Shown here: positions 6,719 to 24,814 of the stretch, one piece after another
How positions within the stretch are numbered: position 1 is the first letter of the stretch
How the letters are laid out: every line of letters begins with the position of its first letter
Source of the DNA: Agromyces salentinus
GTDB taxonomy: Bacteria > Actinomycetota > Actinomycetes > Actinomycetales > Microbacteriaceae
DNA: 64,000 bases
Assembly: GCF_009749395.1 (NCBI RefSeq)
Contig: NZ_WBIR01000013.1
Location: forward strand, 62,001 to 126,000
Direction of reading: 5' to 3'
Program-made: the position numbers and the translations under genes
The notes under the pieces: generated by a model
Told to the model about the DNA's origin: nothing
The model's input: the letters and a program-made list of their open reading frames with translations, nothing else
The model's database searches: none

Positions 6719-6734
6719 TGTTTCACGTGAAACG
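6719..6734. other. parS: parS site 1 (ParB-binding centromere site)
   Basis: TGTTTCACGTGAAACG matches the bacterial parS consensus TGTTTCACGTGAAACA with one change at the last base. It occupies exactly the 16 bp between the jag stop codon and the rsmG ATG, so it replaces any conventional ribosome binding site for rsmG. Confidence 0.95.
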
Positions 6735-7370
6735 ATGAGCGACGAACTCGAGGCTGAGCCGGCCGTCGCGTCGGCCGTGTTCGGTGATCGCATCGAGGTC
6801 GGCCGCGCCTTCACCTCCGCTTTGGCGCGTCACGGCGAGGAACTCGGCCTGATCGGACCGCTGGAGCTCCCCCGCCTGTGGACTCGGCACATCGTGAACT
6901 CGGGCCTGGTCGCAGGACTGCTCCGCCCTGGGTCCGTGGCCGACGTCGGATCGGGGGCGGGCCTGCCCGGTCTCGTCCTCGCGATCATTCGTCCCGATGT
7001 CTCCTTCACGCTCATCGAACCCATGGAGCGACGGGTCGACTGGCTCGAGCGCCAGGTCCGTGAGCTCGATCTGAAGAACGTCGTCGTCGAACGTGCCCGA
7101 GCCGAGGACTCCTCGCACAAGCGGCAGTTCGACCAGGTCACGGCTCGTGCAGTGAGCGCGCTCCGGACCCTCATCCCCGTCACCGCTCCCCTGCTGAAGC
7201 CGGGCGGCGAGTTGGTGCTCTTGAAGGGCGCCGGCGTGGACGGCGAGATCGGCGCCGCTCAGAAGGTCTTCCGCAAGTACCTCGTGTCGGATCCGGAGGT
7301 CGTCGTTCTCGGTGAAGATCTCGGCACTGAGGTCACGCGCGTCTTCCGGGCGACGGTCGACGCGCGCTGA
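6735..7370 (+). CDS. rsmG: 16S rRNA (guanine-N7) methyltransferase RsmG/GidB
   Basis: RsmG methylates G527 of 16S rRNA using SAM; loss gives low-level streptomycin resistance in other bacteria. The 211-aa protein has LWTRHIVNSGLVAG, then the SAM-binding VADVGSGAGLPGLVLAI near residues 75-90. FTLIEPMERRVDWLERQV and the later VTARAVSALRTLIPVTAPLLKPGGELVLLKG block complete the fold. It is located jag-rsmG-parA, as in most actinobacteria. No Shine-Dalgarno sequence precedes the ATG because parS site 1 fills the gap, so translation probably depends on coupling to jag. A short hairpin at 7417-7434 follows. Confidence 0.96.
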   Translation: MSDELEAEPAVASAVFGDRIEVGRAFTSALARHGEELGLIGPLELPRLWTRHIVNSGLVAGLLRPGSVADVGSGAGLPGLVLAIIRPDVSFTLIEPMERRVDWLERQVRELDLKNVVVERARAEDSSHKRQFDQVTARAVSALRTLIPVTAPLLKPGGELVLLKGAGVDGEIGAAQKVFRKYLVSDPEVVVLGEDLGTEVTRVFRATVDAR

Positions 7371-7416
7371 ACCGGCGCGCGGCTCCGTGCGCGTCAGGTC
7401 GAATTCGCCCCTCGCA

Positions 7417-7434
7417 GACGCCGGATTCGGCGTC
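7417..7434 (+). terminator. hairpin downstream of rsmG
   Basis: GACGCCG (7417-7423), GATT loop, CGGCGTC (7428-7434): a perfect 7-bp GC-rich stem 46 bp after the rsmG stop. There is no clear T-run, so it is either an intrinsic-like terminator or an mRNA 3' stabiliser. Confidence 0.5.
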
Positions 7435-7730
7435 CGCCGACCGACCCGGCCGGCCTGTAGCAGGTGCACTTGGGACAGCTGGCTCCTCGGGCGGATGCTG
7501 GCCGGCCTCGGCGTGCGGCTGCGGAGCGTTGCCCATCCCGAACGGTGAGGGTGGACCACCGCCGTTCGCTGGGGATGCTGGTTCCGGAATCCCGCTTGGC
7601 TCGCTGAAGAGCGGACGCTCATCCGTATGGTCGTGCGAGTGCCGACCGCACCTGTGCGGGCGGCACCAAGTGTCCGGTCTCCCGACGCGGTGGCTGGGTA
7701 CGCGGTGCGGAGATCACTCCGGGCGGCGCA

Positions 7731-7746
7731 TGTTTCACGTGAAACA
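7731..7746. other. parS: parS site 2 (perfect consensus)
   Basis: TGTTTCACGTGAAACA is a full 16-bp match to the bacterial parS consensus. It is intergenic, 361 bp after the end of rsmG, and marks the left part of the gene-free region. Confidence 0.97.
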
Positions 7747-7861
7747 AGGAAGCGGCTCGCGGGCCTAGCCCTCATTGAAGAGGGGTGAAGTTCCGAACCC
7801 CTGGCGGCATGTGCAGCGATCTTTGCGTCCTAGGAGTTTCCAGCCCCGAGTCCCGAGCGCG

Positions 7862-8230
7862 GAGCGCCGAGCGCCGAGTACCAGGCAGGGTGCCAGCGGA
7901 GACCGAGCGCCTTTGGCCGAGCGCCATTGGCTGAACGCCTTCGGCCGAACGCCTAATGCCGCTCGCCTTGCCGCTCATCGCTCATCGCTCATCGCGAGCC
8001 GAGCACGGAGCGCCGAGCACCACGCCGGCCACCAGCGGGAGACCGAACGCCCTGCGCCGATCGCCGTGTGCCGAGCATCGAGCATCGAGCGTCACGAGCC
8101 GAGCGGCGAGCGCCGAGCGCCGAGCGCAGAGCGCAGAGCATGCGGGAGGGCAGCGACATGGGCGTTGAGCGCAGAGCGCCGAGCACGCGGCAGGGCAGCA
8201 CCACGAGCGCCGAGCGCTATCTAGCGTAGA
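7862..8230. repeat. degenerate GAGCnnn heptad repeats in nested longer units
   Basis: The block is built from 7-bp units GAGC+3 (GAGCGCC, GAGCGCA, GAGCATC, GAGCACG). Strict tandem runs include 7862-7875 (2 units), 8073-8093 (3) and 8101-8142 (6). Three inverse units GCTCATC occur at 7973-7993. Longer degenerate copies also recur: sequence starting at 7869 is similar for about 55 bp to that starting at 8008, and the segment at 8129 is similar to that at 8174. A 7-bp period does not fit a reading frame. There are no CRISPR-like spacers. Function is unknown. Confidence 0.75.
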
Positions 8231-8420
8231 GCGCCGGGTCTTTGCTGCCGTGATCTGGCGGCCTGACACCTTCGCGGGCCGAAAGCCGAGAGGCATCAAG
8301 ACCGGGGCAGGTTCGGGTCTGCATTCCGAATGCCGTCGCTGGGTCGGTGCCCGGAGCGGCATCAGCGGCGCTTCATCGTGATCGCGCGATCGCGGTCCGA
8401 ACCGGGTGAGCGTCTCGCAA

Positions 8421-8529
8421 CGCTCTCTTCTTTGCTTCGTTTCCTTCTCCTCCCCCTCCCCCCTCCTTCTTCTTCACCCGTTTCCTCCTCCCTGCTTCTC
8501 GCTGTCCTTTACCTTTGGTTCCCTCTTCG
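8421..8529. repeat. polypyrimidine tract
   Basis: About 110 bp are almost entirely C and T on the plus strand, including an uninterrupted 36-nt pyrimidine run at 8440-8475. The central part is close to mirror-symmetric around about 8457. Such homopurine/homopyrimidine mirror sequences can form triplex (H-DNA) in supercoiled DNA. It lies in the gene-free region between parS sites 2 and 3. The role is not known. Confidence 0.7.
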
Positions 8530-9486
8530 CAGTTCGTTGCCGTCGGATCCGGAAACTCGTGCTTGCCCCTCCCTTGTTCTTCGTTCGAAGAGGTTTCCGC
8601 GTTTGCTGGGTATGGCCACAGGCCCGGGTATTTGGCGGCGGTCCAGCGAGTGCCGCATCGTCGACATCCGTGCTTCCGTGGGCGGCGAGCCAAGGGCGGC
8701 GCCCAGGAATATGCATCGATGGTGCAAGATTCCGATCGAAGCCCCGATCGGCCCGGGCTTGCTGATCCCGTGTCGCAGTGCGGGCTGGGCGAGTTGGAGG
8801 TTGCGCCGGGCTGTTTCCTGATGACCACCGTGGGCTCGTCGGGTCGACCTCCGCGCTCTGTCGCGAGGCCACATCACCTGCACCATCTCGGGTGACGGCG
8901 ACTCGGATCGGGCGTGCCAGCACCTGCGCCCGGCTTCAATCGCGATGCCGGCTCTCACCGGCCAGGCGGCTTGAGTGCGAGTCCACTGGCCACAATGGCA
9001 GCGTGTGAGCCGACCGAGCGCGACGGGTGGTCGATATTCGGATGCCCCTCCTGGCCACGGCTGTGCGACCGACCTCGATCCGTGATGTCTGCTTCGGAGC
9101 GTGAGCACGGGCGCCGAACCTCTCCCGCGATGGGAACCAGTGCGCCCTAACGCAGCTGTTTCCGCACTGGCGTGTTCGAAGCGCTGACGCCCGCTGGACC
9201 GAAACCAGCGCTGGAACGGCAGCGACCGGCGCAGTGGAGATGAGAGGGTAGCCCCGCAGAGGGCGATCGAGGCCGTGCTGCAAGAGGGGACTGAGGGCCC
9301 GCGACCGCGCGAATCCTTGCTCATTCAGCCCGGGTCGGATCCAGCATCGATTTCATTGATCCCCCGCAGTCGGGATGACGCTTCCGAACGGCGAGTCGTG
9401 GTCGGCACGCATGCGTGCCGGTGCGGTCCCATGGCCGTTCACCAGCGTTGTACACGTGACCTTCCCGTCCTTGCGAATCACGTGGA

Positions 9487-9502
9487 TGTTTCACGTGAAA
9501 CA
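9487..9502. other. parS: parS site 3 (perfect consensus)
   Basis: TGTTTCACGTGAAACA is a full consensus match. It lies 190 bp upstream of the parA start, so ParB binding here could also influence parAB transcription. Confidence 0.97.
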
Positions 9503-9692
9503 CCGGCGTCGAGCGCGTCCAAGCTCCAGTCGACCCGGCTGGGCCGCTTCACTCTCGCGCGTCGTCACGCAACTCCGTCCGCATGGGTCGGTGGTGGCGG
9601 TTAGGCTTGGGTGTCCAGTGGAGTTCGGTCGACTGCACTGACTGGTGGCACCCGATCGTGGGGAATGACGGATCAGGTTTGGAGAATTCGGC

Positions 9693-11705
9693 ATGGCACA
9701 GGGCGGAGGTCGCGGATGGTTTCATCGTCGTCGATCACAGCCCGAACCACCGGCCACTCCCCCAACTCCTGACGTGAAGTCTGAAGAGACCTCGCCGCTC
9801 CCGACACCTGCCGAAACGGCGAGTCCGGCCGCTCCAGAGTTCACGGCCGCGGAGCTGCGTCCAGCCTCCATTGTTCGCCATCCTGATGTGCACGGTGATG
9901 CCCGGGCATGGTCCACCCCCGGTGACGCTGATCGATCTGCACGCGGCGCGGAGCCTCCTGCTGCCACCCCGGTCACTGGTGCGGTTCCGGATGGAATCAG
10001 CGCTGCGGTCGGTGCGAGCCCCCATGTCGCTCCCCCGAGCACGGAAGAGCGAGGCGTGGATGATCCTCGTCAGTCCACGGTGAAGAGCTACGACTGGGAC
10101 GCCGCGACGGCCGCGGCGCTGAGCGACGAGGATGGTCCGGCCGTACCGGCCCGGGCTGCACACTCGCTCGCTCAGCCCGATCGCCTCCTCGAAGACATCA
10201 TCCGTGAGATCGTCGGCGACGCCGCTGCGGATACGGTGAGCTCCCTGCAGACCGCCCGCGCGACGACCCCATCTTCCATCCCAGAGGCGACACGGGCGTA
10301 CGATCTCAACTCGCAGCCGACGGGTGAGACCGTTTCCGGACGCGAGCAGACGGTTCCCGATGTTTCCGATGTCCCGCTCCCTTCAGCACTCATGGGCACT
10401 GACGCAGGATTTGCCGACGCGGCAGAAGTGCCGACGGAGGAAGGCGATGCAGACCCGCACGGCGTTTCACGTGAAACGGCTCACCACGCCCCGTCGGAAA
10501 CCAGCACCATCCGCGAGGAGCCGGACGCTCCCAAGGATCCCGATGAGCATCCGAACCCGCCCATAGTCGAGGCCCCCTTGGCACCACACGTCGCCGTTTC
10601 CGATCGCGACCACGACGATCCCGGCGGCGATCCGCCGGTCTTGGCCCACGACGTCGTGACGACTCCGGTCGTCGATGCGCCGAGCGCTCTCCCGGTGAGC
10701 ACTGTCATCGAGGCACTTCCGGCGTCCGATGCACATCGAGCGTCGCCTGAACTCGACCCTGGCGCGGCGAAGCCTGCGCTCGTACCCCCCGTTTCACGTG
10801 AAACGGAGCCCGAATACGGAGGAACTCCCCTGGCCGACCAAATTGCCGACGAGACTCGTCGACGCATCGCACTCGAGACCGCGGTCCTCCCGTTGCCCGC
10901 ACAGACGCGCGTGTTCACGATCTCCAATCAGAAGGGCGGAGTGGGCAAGACCACGACCGCCGTGAATCTGGCAGCGGCGCTGGCACGATCCGGCGCCCAT
11001 GTGCTCGTGGTGGATCTCGACCCGCAGGGCAACGCGTCAACCGCGCTCGGCGTCGATCACCGCTCCGACCAGCAGAGTGTCTACGAAGTGCTTGTCGCAG
11101 ACCTGGAACTTGCGGCTGTCGTCCGACCTTCGACAGAGCACGAACGGCTCGATTGCGTGCCCGCCACGATCCACCTCGCCGGAGCTGAGATCGAACTCGT
11201 CTCGCTCGTCGCTCGCGAACAGCGGCTCCGCCGCGCCATCGACAAGCATCTCGCCTCGATGGACCGACCGTACGACTACGTCTTCATCGACTGCCCGCCG
11301 TCCCTCGGGCTCCTCACCATCAATGCATTCGTGGCGGCACGAGAGGTGCTGATCCCGATCCAGTGCGAGTACTACGCGCTGGAGGGACTCTCCCAGCTCC
11401 TGAGCAATATCGAGTTGATCGAGAAGCACCTGAATTCCGAGCTCCGACTCTCGACCATCCTCTTGACGATGTACGACTCCCGCACCAACCTGGCGCAGCA
11501 GGTGGCGCAAGAGGTACGCGATCACTTCCCGGTGGAGACGCTCGAGACGATCATCCCCCGATCGGTTCGGGTATCCGAAGCGCCGAGTTACGGCCAGAGC
11601 GTCATCAGCTACGACTACTCGTCGTCCGGTTCGCTGTCATATCGTGAGGCCGCGGCGGAGATTGCACAGCGAGCCGCTTCGGCGGCACGGAAGGAAGCGA
11701 ACTGA
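9693..11705 (+). CDS. parA: Chromosome partitioning ATPase ParA with very long N-terminal extension
   Basis: ParA is a Walker-type ATPase that, with ParB-parS, separates newly replicated origins. The C-terminal 290 residues are canonical. TPLADQIADETRRRIALE lies near 378-396, Walker A KGGVGKTTT at about 414-422, DLDPQGNAST follows it, and DCPPSLGLLTINA and the later EAPSYGQSVISYD block are present. The first 375 residues or so are Pro/Ala/Glu/Asp-rich, look disordered, and match no family I know. Two parS sites lie inside this part, each read as VSRET. The ATG at 9693 has TTGGAG upstream. A GGAGG at 10818-10822 lies 7 nt before an in-frame CTG (10830), which could allow a short form. The stop overlaps parB (TGATG). 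Confidence 0.93.
   Translation: MAQGGGRGWFHRRRSQPEPPATPPTPDVKSEETSPLPTPAETASPAAPEFTAAELRPASIVRHPDVHGDARAWSTPGDADRSARGAEPPAATPVTGAVPDGISAAVGASPHVAPPSTEERGVDDPRQSTVKSYDWDAATAAALSDEDGPAVPARAAHSLAQPDRLLEDIIREIVGDAAADTVSSLQTARATTPSSIPEATRAYDLNSQPTGETVSGREQTVPDVSDVPLPSALMGTDAGFADAAEVPTEEGDADPHGVSRETAHHAPSETSTIREEPDAPKDPDEHPNPPIVEAPLAPHVAVSDRDHDDPGGDPPVLAHDVVTTPVVDAPSALPVSTVIEALPASDAHRASPELDPGAAKPALVPPVSRETEPEYGGTPLADQIADETRRRIALETAVLPLPAQTRVFTISNQKGGVGKTTTAVNLAAALARSGAHVLVVDLDPQGNASTALGVDHRSDQQSVYEVLVADLELAAVVRPSTEHERLDCVPATIHLAGAEIELVSLVAREQRLRRAIDKHLASMDRPYDYVFIDCPPSLGLLTINAFVAAREVLIPIQCEYYALEGLSQLLSNIELIEKHLNSELRLSTILLTMYDSRTNLAQQVAQEVRDHFPVETLETIIPRSVRVSEAPSYGQSVISYDYSSSGSLSYREAAAEIAQRAASAARKEAN
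10463..10478. other. parS: parS site 4, inside the parA coding region
   Basis: CGTTTCACGTGAAACG keeps the 14-bp core GTTTCACGTGAAAC with symmetric end changes. In the parA frame it encodes VSRET in the N-terminal extension. Confidence 0.9.
10790..10805. other. parS: parS site 5, inside the parA coding region
   Basis: CGTTTCACGTGAAACG is identical to site 4, 327 bp downstream of it, and again encodes VSRET just before the conserved ParA domain. Confidence 0.9.
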
Positions 11706-12703
11706 TGGCTACGAAGCGCACAGGACTGGGTCGAGGTATCGGTGCACTCATTCCGCAAGGCGAGGACGCCGCCCGCGCGACTCGACCGGTGGACGTGTTC
11801 TTCCCGGACTCCGAGGCCGGCCAGTCGGCGTCAGTCGCAGTGGTCGAGGCAGCGGCTGATGCCGCAGAGTCGAGTGGGCTCGTCTCCGTGCCCGGCGCTC
11901 GTCTCGCACGATTGAATCCCGATGACATCGTGCCGAATGCGGTGCAGCCGCGGCATGTCTTCGATCCGGAGGACCTCGCCGAACTCGTCCACAGCGTGCG
12001 CGAGTTCGGAGTCCTCCAACCCATCGTCGTTCGTCCCCACCCAGACCAGGCCGGCAAGTTCGAACTCGTCATGGGTGAGCGACGCCTTCGCGCCACGAAG
12101 GAAGCGGGTCTCGACTCCATCCCGGCGGTCATCAAGGACACCGCCAACGAGGACATGCTGCGCGACGCGCTGCTCGAGAATCTCCACCGTTCACAGTTGA
12201 ACGCCCTCGAGGAAGCCTCCGCGTATCAGCAACTTCTCGCCGATTTCGGAATCACGCAGGAGGAACTCGCCGCGCGGATCGGGCGGTCACGCCCGCAGAT
12301 CTCCAACACGCTGCGGCTGCTGAAGCTCCCCGAGTCGGTTCAGGTTCGGGTGGCCGCCGGAGTCTTGAGCGCAGGTCACGCCCGAGCGATCCTCGCAACG
12401 GGCGGTGACAGCGAGCAGATGCAGCGCTTCGCGGACAAGATCGTCAACGAGGAACTCTCCGTTCGTGCGGCGGAGGCTGCAGCCACCTCCGCCGCACCGG
12501 GTACTTCAAGTCGAGCGAAGCCATCGGCCGGCAAGCGGCAGGATTTCCTCGATGATCTCGCCGGGCGCCTCGGAGACCGGCTGAACACGCGGGTGAACAT
12601 CAAGCTCGGTGCGCGAAAAGGCCAGATCAGCATAGATTTCGCGACCGTTCAGGACCTTCGGCGGATCCTCACGGATCTTGGCGAAGAACTCGAAGGCGTC
12701 TGA
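11705..12703 (+). CDS. parB: Chromosome partitioning protein ParB
   Basis: ParB binds parS and spreads or slides along DNA as a CTP-dependent clamp. The 332-aa protein begins with KRTGLGRGIGALIP, the usual ParA-stimulating N-terminal motif. It then has the CTPase/N-domain (DDIVPNAVQPRHVFD, ELVHSVREFGVLQPIVVR, and GERRLRATKEAG near 120-132). The helix-turn-helix region follows (ENLHRSQLNALEEASAYQQL; IGRSRPQISNTLRLLKLP), and a C-terminal dimerisation domain ends the protein. The start codon overlaps the parA stop, so the two are co-translated. A strong bidirectional hairpin follows at 12782-12816. Confidence 0.97.
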   Translation: MATKRTGLGRGIGALIPQGEDAARATRPVDVFFPDSEAGQSASVAVVEAAADAAESSGLVSVPGARLARLNPDDIVPNAVQPRHVFDPEDLAELVHSVREFGVLQPIVVRPHPDQAGKFELVMGERRLRATKEAGLDSIPAVIKDTANEDMLRDALLENLHRSQLNALEEASAYQQLLADFGITQEELAARIGRSRPQISNTLRLLKLPESVQVRVAAGVLSAGHARAILATGGDSEQMQRFADKIVNEELSVRAAEAAATSAAPGTSSRAKPSAGKRQDFLDDLAGRLGDRLNTRVNIKLGARKGQISIDFATVQDLRRILTDLGEELEGV

Positions 12704-24603: not shown

Positions 24604-24814
24604 TTGTACACAGGTGGGGTATCGCACACCGTGGAGTTCTCAAGAACTTTTTCCACACAGGTGTGGAAACTCTAAATGCCCGATCAAGTCAGAATTCAAC
24701 TCGTGTAATTCACAACAATTCCACAGATATCCACAGGCTGATTGCACATGTTCTGCGGCGTTTCGCCCAGATTCTCCCCAGAGTTATCCACAGGCTGGGT
24801 TGTGCTGTGGAGAT
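24604..24814. promoter_or_regulatory. DnaA-box cluster upstream of dnaB
   Basis: The 470-bp gap between rplI and dnaB contains, in a locally AT-rich stretch, a perfect DnaA box TTATCCACA (24784-24792). Near matches are TTGTACACA (24604-24612), TTTTCCACA (24649-24657), TGTGGAAAC on the other strand (24662-24670), AATTCCACA (24717-24725), ATATCCACA (24727-24735) and TGTGGAGAT (24806-24814). The density exceeds that of the dnaA-dnaN gap. The cluster could regulate dnaB, titrate DnaA or form an auxiliary origin element. The remaining 24815-24945 shows no structure beyond the dnaB ribosome binding site. Confidence 0.7.

Follow-up and report, generated by a model that had tools for sequence, protein, structure and literature searches.

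The 64,000-nucleotide stretch of Agromyces salentinus DNA analysed here (the window; contig NZ_WBIR01000013.1) raises the question of whether selection at a parS site that lies inside a gene acts on the DNA or on the peptide it encodes. The original prediction for this stretch had named five parS sites, the last two of which (sites 4 and 5) are read within parA as the peptide VSRET, and had proposed that an extension of parA serves as a DNA address as well as a protein. Comparison of the locus across Agromyces, the other Microbacteriaceae and more distant actinobacteria points to selection on the parS DNA, with the VSRET peptide a by-product. The explanation that we consider highly probable overall is that an old ParA-proximal parS was kept as DNA and was engulfed by the ParA extension of Agromyces.

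The parS cluster near dnaA

The open reading frames (ORFs) of the window are arranged as an actinobacterial origin region, with dnaN and dnaA on the minus strand followed by yidC, jag, gidB, parA and parB on the plus strand. We identified dnaN, dnaA, gidB, parA and parB by Pfam; the two genes named yidC and jag we take to be these from the gene order. The features on which the argument depends are as follows.

6720 to 6733, unstranded: parS site 1, exact palindrome at the jag/gidB junction
7732 to 7745, unstranded: parS site 2, exact palindrome in the gidB-parA gap
9488 to 9501, unstranded: parS site 3, exact palindrome in the gidB-parA gap
10464 to 10477, unstranded: parS site 4, exact, with VSRET as ParA residues 258-262
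10791 to 10804, unstranded: parS site 5, exact, with VSRET as ParA residues 367-371
9693 to 11705, plus strand: parA long form, 670 amino acids, with a Shine-Dalgarno-like GGAG at 9681-9684 and a start motif and upstream sequence common to relatives
11705 to 12703, plus strand: parB, with the Pfam domains ParB_N, HTH_ParB and ParB_C

All five predicted sites were recovered as exact copies of the 14-mer GTTTCACGTGAAAC at 6720, 7732, 9488, 10464 and 10791 (the prediction had given them as 16-mers, one base lower), and sites 4 and 5 are indeed read as VSRET in the parA frame, within the 670-codon ORF 9693-11705. Every one of the five matches the parS consensus core TGTTNCACGTGAAACA quoted in the available text of PMC2346475. 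Neither the window nor the rest of the 4.23-Mb genome (40 contigs) contains a further parS at up to 2 mismatches, and a control pattern, parS read backwards, occurs at 2 places in the same genome. In 100 dinucleotide shuffles of the window, sites at up to 2 mismatches averaged 0.04 with a maximum of 1 and five were never reached, which rules out chance. The sites span 4.1 kb (6720-10804), lie 2.8-6.9 kb from the end of dnaA, near dnaA/oriC, and at up to 2 mismatches are absent elsewhere in the assembly. The adjoining ParB, with its ParB_N, helix-turn-helix (HTH) and C-terminal domains, aligns with solved ParB/Spo0J chains, including the GERR-x-RA stretch, and is by sequence a parS-binding cytidine triphosphatase (CTPase) cognate to these sites. 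Judged by these features of sequence and position, the five palindromes together make up the chromosomal parS cluster of the Agromyces species.

Site 5 within Agromyces and beyond

Site 5 was compared among 38 Agromyces genomes, comprising the window, 36 same-genus genomes and A. humatus. It is found exactly 93 nt upstream of the start of the ParA core (10884) in 33 of the 38 and at -102, 9 nt further out, in one; the remaining four carry a site at -84 with one mismatch. Loss of the motif with retention of the protein, which the original prediction had named as evidence against itself, is therefore not seen at this site among the 38. The first four codons of the site, GTT TCA CGT GAA, are invariant in the 33 Agromyces rows, yet parA rarely chooses them between the core start and its end (GTT 6%, TCA 4%, CGT 19% and GAA 22%). 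Codon usage predicts this combination with P about 1e-4 for one gene, a value that cannot be multiplied across related genomes, which are not independent. When synonymous conservation was scored in 253 five-codon windows along parA, two peaks stood out, one over VSRET and the other over GGTPL, which is described below. The bases that flank the site vary among the 33 genomes (before it T in 21, C in 9 and G in 3; after it A in 19 and G in 14), and the symmetric C/G ends noted for sites 4 and 5, although present in the window, are not a conserved mark.

Site 4 behaves otherwise. A second in-frame coding parS of this type occurs in nine of the 38 Agromyces, at positions from -129 to -420, so that its place, unlike that of site 5, is not conserved. 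The nine carriers fall in two parts of the tree, a supported clade of four rows and five rows within a group of ten, with several forks open. The copies of the window and of its nearest relative, L035, do not align, and we rejected site 4 as one conserved element, though a single origin is still conceivable. Site 4 is a mobile extra.

A wider comparison comes from a panel of 80 loci from 78 other Microbacteriaceae genera. Between -210 and -60, 62 of these loci have a parS (54 exact and 8 with one mismatch), and the sites fall in all three reading frames: 16 in the frame that gives VSRET (E0), 35 in the frame that gives FHVK (E2) and 11 in the frame with an in-frame stop (E1). In the 11 loci of the last group, no in-frame stop upstream of ParA lies nearer to it than the TGA of parS itself. 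Nor is the peptide shared by those other genera, closest by ParA score, that have a related extension with an RGWF motif; two loci (L201 and L202) read the site as FHVKQS and the other two (L203 and L204) have no parS in parA, the nearest lying at -1196 and -1215. VSRET as such is thus not conserved. Among 28 one-mismatch frame-0 variants in the panels, 16 read VPRET and 6 read VSRGT, a single DNA variant seen from its two sides, and the 4 synonymous variants likewise come down to one DNA variant in both orientations. The most variable base is the N of the consensus in PMC2346475, as quoted in the text available. Readings in all three frames, frozen codons and a single DNA variant that gives two different peptides argue that the DNA was selected and not the peptide.

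Outside the family, we scored sites with up to one mismatch at -450 to -30. They are present in 17 of 23 loci of the order panel (15 in the VSRET-type frame), in all 19 named Streptomyces loci (18 in the VSRET frame) and in 55 of 60 other named loci (32 in the VSRET frame, 12 in the FHVK frame and 11 otherwise or outside an open frame). Some of these sites may be leader rather than coding sequence, as the parA starts there are not established. Two further placements were observed. In Sanguibacter and a Cellulomonadaceae genome (L104 and L106), an exact parS is read as VSRET inside the ParA ATPase core, at +324 from the core start, and in Microbacterium and its kin (L100-L103, L108 and L264) an ATG overlaps parS to give MFHVKQ, a possible ParA start.

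Many loci of the family also have a parS no more than 100 nt from the gidB start. Counting only loci with the gidB start in view, such a site was found in 37 Agromyces loci as 28 exact and 5 one-mismatch copies and in 78 loci of other Microbacteriaceae as 53 exact and 3 one-mismatch copies. It is rarer elsewhere (4 exact and 2 one-mismatch in 22 loci of the order; 20 exact and 1 one-mismatch in 73 loci of the named panel). Because parS near the gidB start is common in the family as well, the ParA-proximal parS looks like an old landmark of the gidB-parA boundary.

The ParA extension and the GGAGG-CTG element

The ATPase domain of the window's ParA (Pfam AAA_31) occupies residues 406-585. Its deviant Walker A motif, KGGVGKT, is invariant in an alignment of 42 sequences (the 38 Agromyces and four from two other genera), and parB adjoins the gene, as in chromosomal ParA/Soj systems; the NCBIfam equivalog ParA_partition was matched below its cut-off (114 of 180 bits). 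The best named relative of this ParA is that of Agromyces humatus (89%), which sits among the same-genus genomes in the tree, and the next is that of Homoserinibacter (76%). Ahead of the core, whose start we chose at 10884, the window's protein has 397 amino acids, and an extension is found in all 38 Agromyces, with lengths of 113-603 amino acids among those listed. Its parts in the window are these.

9693 to 10790, plus strand: ParA N-terminal extension up to site 5, with in-frame indels, its own dN/dS range and low pLDDT
9693 to 9734, plus strand: N-terminal motif MAQGGGRGWFHRRR, with G8, W9 and F10 invariant in 42 sequences
10092 to 10121, plus strand: DWDAATAAAL motif, predicted short helix, with DWDxxTAAA[LF] in 36 of 36 Agromyces proteins listed
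10185 to 10220, plus strand: LLEDIIREIVGD motif, predicted short helix, in 28 of 36 Agromyces proteins tested

Near the N-terminus, 35 of the 36 proteins first extracted have GRGW[FL] and the remaining one has ARGWF; two Agromyces loci added later start MAQGGRGWF and MAGWFQRR. A Shine-Dalgarno-like sequence, by a loose four-base criterion, precedes the start of the extension in 35 of 37 loci scanned, and both inner motifs are visible in the consensus of the 42 sequences. In six close pairs of genomes all 15 indels of the extension have lengths divisible by 3, whereas in the gidB-parA gap these pairs have 199 indels, of which 42 are so. Over eight pairs, the ratio of nonsynonymous to synonymous substitution (dN/dS) ranges from 0.28 to 0.74 for the extension and from 0.00 to 0.04 for the core. 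AlphaFold gives a mostly low predicted local distance difference test score (pLDDT) across the extension and places a short helix at each of the two inner motifs, in a model of the full ParA that is itself weak (mean pLDDT 56). Given the in-frame indels, dN/dS, conserved start and inner motifs and low pLDDT, the extension is translated and fast-evolving and is probably disordered.

Residues 1-366 have no Pfam match up to E 1, and we discarded the idea that the extension is a known domain. Type Ia plasmid ParA proteins also have an additional N-terminal part, a DNA-binding domain; in residues 1-366 of the Agromyces protein, Pfam finds no HTH and the model gives low-confidence coil with two short helices. 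The DNA pattern for DWDAAT occurs at one place in the genome, and neither it nor the GWF-motif pattern was found outside parA at 0 or 1 mismatch, a search that divergent copies would escape; motifs common to other proteins of the genome were set aside on this basis. DWDAATAAAL and the LLEDIIREIVGD motif are two conserved, predicted-helical candidates for partner contacts. Together with RGWF-RRR they would probably allow the extension to act as a tether or to bind a partner. Attachment to a polar partner is a first guess and no further, because in M. smegmatis the ParA N-terminus takes part in binding DivIVA but 20 residues of it were insufficient to transfer that binding (PMC9298525, as far as its text was available).

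The second peak of synonymous conservation lies just after site 5, within the following element.

10818 to 10832, plus strand: GGAGG (10818-10822), 7 nt and CTG (10830-10832), synonymously frozen and a possible internal start

The sequence GGAGGAACTCCCCTG begins thirteen nt after site 5 and its codons encode GGTPL, the top-scoring of the 253 windows. All 33 rows that have site 5 at -93 keep GGAGG and CTG unchanged, while the seven-base spacer differs in five of them; the other 5 Agromyces lack the element. Because GGAGGAACTCCCCTGGC occurs exactly just once in the genome (a single further place matches at 2 mismatches), we rejected it as a repeated operator. We also rejected a short inverted repeat, which is broken in the two rows whose spacer is AACCCCC and which keep GGAGG and CTG.

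The element may be an internal translation start, in which case parA would make both the 670-amino-acid long form and a 291-amino-acid ParA from the CTG at 10830; site 5 would then belong to the short form's leader, a position that parS may also have in relatives. This is a tentative possibility that fits together with the engulfment of site 5. The pattern of invariant GGAGG and CTG around a varied spacer favours it, as do the high synonymous conservation, the uniqueness of the exact copy, a spacing and content that resemble a Shine-Dalgarno sequence with a CTG start, and the coincidence of that start with the first predicted helix before the core (379-396). However, CTG is a rare start codon, the element is missing from 5 of 38 Agromyces and none of 68 other family loci with a TPLA-like motif has GGAGG at that place. 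The leucine is also invariant in 42 proteins and is therefore kept for protein reasons too. We give only a slim chance to the further idea that a long ParA with a disordered tether coexists with a short ParA and that ParB at the parS in the short-form leader could set their ratio.

History of the coding parS and known systems

In the ParABS family, ParB binds parS with cytidine triphosphate (CTP), spreads and is moved by ParA. By analogy with the family, the ParB encoded beside parA would load on the five parS sites with CTP and spread, and ParA would move the complex. Site 5 would be the old ParA-proximal parS, its DNA kept across much of the Microbacteriaceae. In the Agromyces lineage the start of parA would have shifted about 1.1 kb upstream, and the added extension would have taken in the site. 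Of the three frames of parS, one has a stop and two are open; VSRET is the reading in Agromyces and FHVK that in its closest relatives, and the peptide would be a tolerated by-product within a floppy linker. As parS stands beside the core in 62 of 80 family loci and in all three frames, it is simplest to suppose that the site came first and ParA grew around it; site 5 looks older than the extension, with the direction given by parsimony only. The proposed double role of the extension as address and protein therefore stands in part, since the DNA appears to be selected within a translated stretch while the extension probably did not create the address.

Several observations weigh against this account. 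The proximal parS is missing in 18 of 80 family loci (-210 to -60), or 11 of 80 when -450 to -30 is considered, and the variant counts are not independent, since 4 of 6 VSRGT come from one Agromyces clade and the 16 VPRET from 13 loci. In the two most diverged pairs (the window with L035, and L039 with L045), 17 of the 32 indels in the extension have lengths not divisible by 3, a departure that we attribute to poor alignment, identity there being 53-59%. The 38 Agromyces have 47 coding sites, every one in frame 0, though few independent events underlie them, and outside the Microbacteriaceae the reading is mostly VSRET (15 of 17 in the order, 18 of 19 in Streptomyces), where the peptide may possibly be of value. 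These last two observations are what one would expect if VSRET were primarily a functional ParA peptide, for instance one that touches ParB or ParA, with its match to parS secondary. We regard that as very improbable, since the codons are frozen and not varied, most variants change the peptide and belong to one DNA class, FHVK or a stop stands at about this place in Microbacterium and in many further loci of the family, and the same DNA at the gidB start encodes no ParA peptide. About as improbable is that the upstream frame is an annotation artefact, with parA starting near the core, the frame open by chance and site 5 non-coding. G+C-rich frames do easily remain open, and in the eight genomes checked codon-position GC is less biased in the extension than in the core, but the conserved start motif, usually with a Shine-Dalgarno-like sequence, the uniformly in-frame indels of the close pairs, dN/dS below 1 in all eight pairs and the conserved inner motifs contradict it. 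That the parA-embedded parS is mainly an operator, at which bound ParB blocks or tunes parA expression rather than acting in segregation, seems unlikely to us. Casart et al. proposed such a role for the parS in parA of M. bovis BCG (PMC2346475, from the text available), and many family sites lie just before or at a plausible parA start, although those starts are not established. In Agromyces, however, the long-form start lies 1.1 kb upstream of the site, and the cluster has further sites with an identical sequence; such regulation would also be compatible with a segregation role.

The region between gidB and parA adds to the picture of the boundary.

7371 to 9692, unstranded: gidB-parA gap with parS 2 and 3, which evolves as non-coding DNA

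Across seven genome pairs, 48 of 224 indels in the gap are multiples of 3. None of the 11 ORFs of 80 amino acids or more wholly within it reaches a Pfam cut-off and 10 have no match up to E 1; the other has two sub-threshold matches with E about 0.1, taken as chance. On the Pfam results and the non-coding indel pattern, we rejected genes here. With short tandem repeats at 7903-8217 and its parS sites, the gap behaves like a fast-evolving centromere spacer. A gene-poor gap measures 0.8 to 5.9 kb in 35 Agromyces and is below 0.3 kb in 17 of 22 loci from other families; a long gap is also present in Microbacterium and some other genera of the family. In the window as a whole, no RNA family reached its gathering threshold. 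Two DnaA-box-like sequences (TTWTNCACA) lie 135 nt apart at 24649-24792, far from dnaA, where 0.13 would be expected by chance in the window and 1 of 100 shuffles reached as many.

The locus is a clean natural example of DNA that serves as centromere and as coding sequence at once, and comparison across the family gives evidence on which role was selected. That the site recurs in each of the three frames, depending on the genus, provides a control seldom available for overlapping codes. The ParA extension and the frozen GGAGG-CTG are testable leads to how a segregation ATPase gains partners or a second isoform. For M. bovis BCG, a parS within parA has already been published (PMC2346475); none is reported in the passages available of PMC10714820, PMC9298525, PMC7083940 and PMC12511625. 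The extension with three conserved short motifs and the frozen GGAGG-N7-CTG after site 5 are apparently new, as no report of the Agromyces extension, the three-frame pattern or the GGAGG-CTG element appeared in a literature search that covered few subscription papers and partial texts.

In the portions of the cited papers available, the closest known system is the parAB locus of mycobacteria, of the Spo0J/Soj type, as described for M. bovis BCG, with one parS before gidB and one inside parA (PMC2346475). The palindrome, the order jag-gidB-parA-parB and the placement of sites at the gidB start and in parA are the same. Agromyces differs in having five sites rather than two, two of them in parA, and a large gidB-parA gap with further sites; its parA site is also 366 codons into the ORF because of the long extension. 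In Corynebacterium glutamicum, parS1, one of ten sites (parS1-10), lies in the coding sequence of trpCF and works alone (PMC7083940), so a parS inside a gene is not unusual. That actinobacterium likewise has several identical parS not far from oriC, one of them coding, but the coding site is not in parA and the cluster covers 35 kb, 73 kb from oriC. The short extension of 20-25 amino acids in Actinomycetota ParA (PMC9298525) resembles that of Agromyces in lengthening a chromosomal ParA at its N-terminus, possibly to engage a polar partner, whereas the Agromyces extension is 113-603 amino acids long, has other conserved motifs and contains parS.

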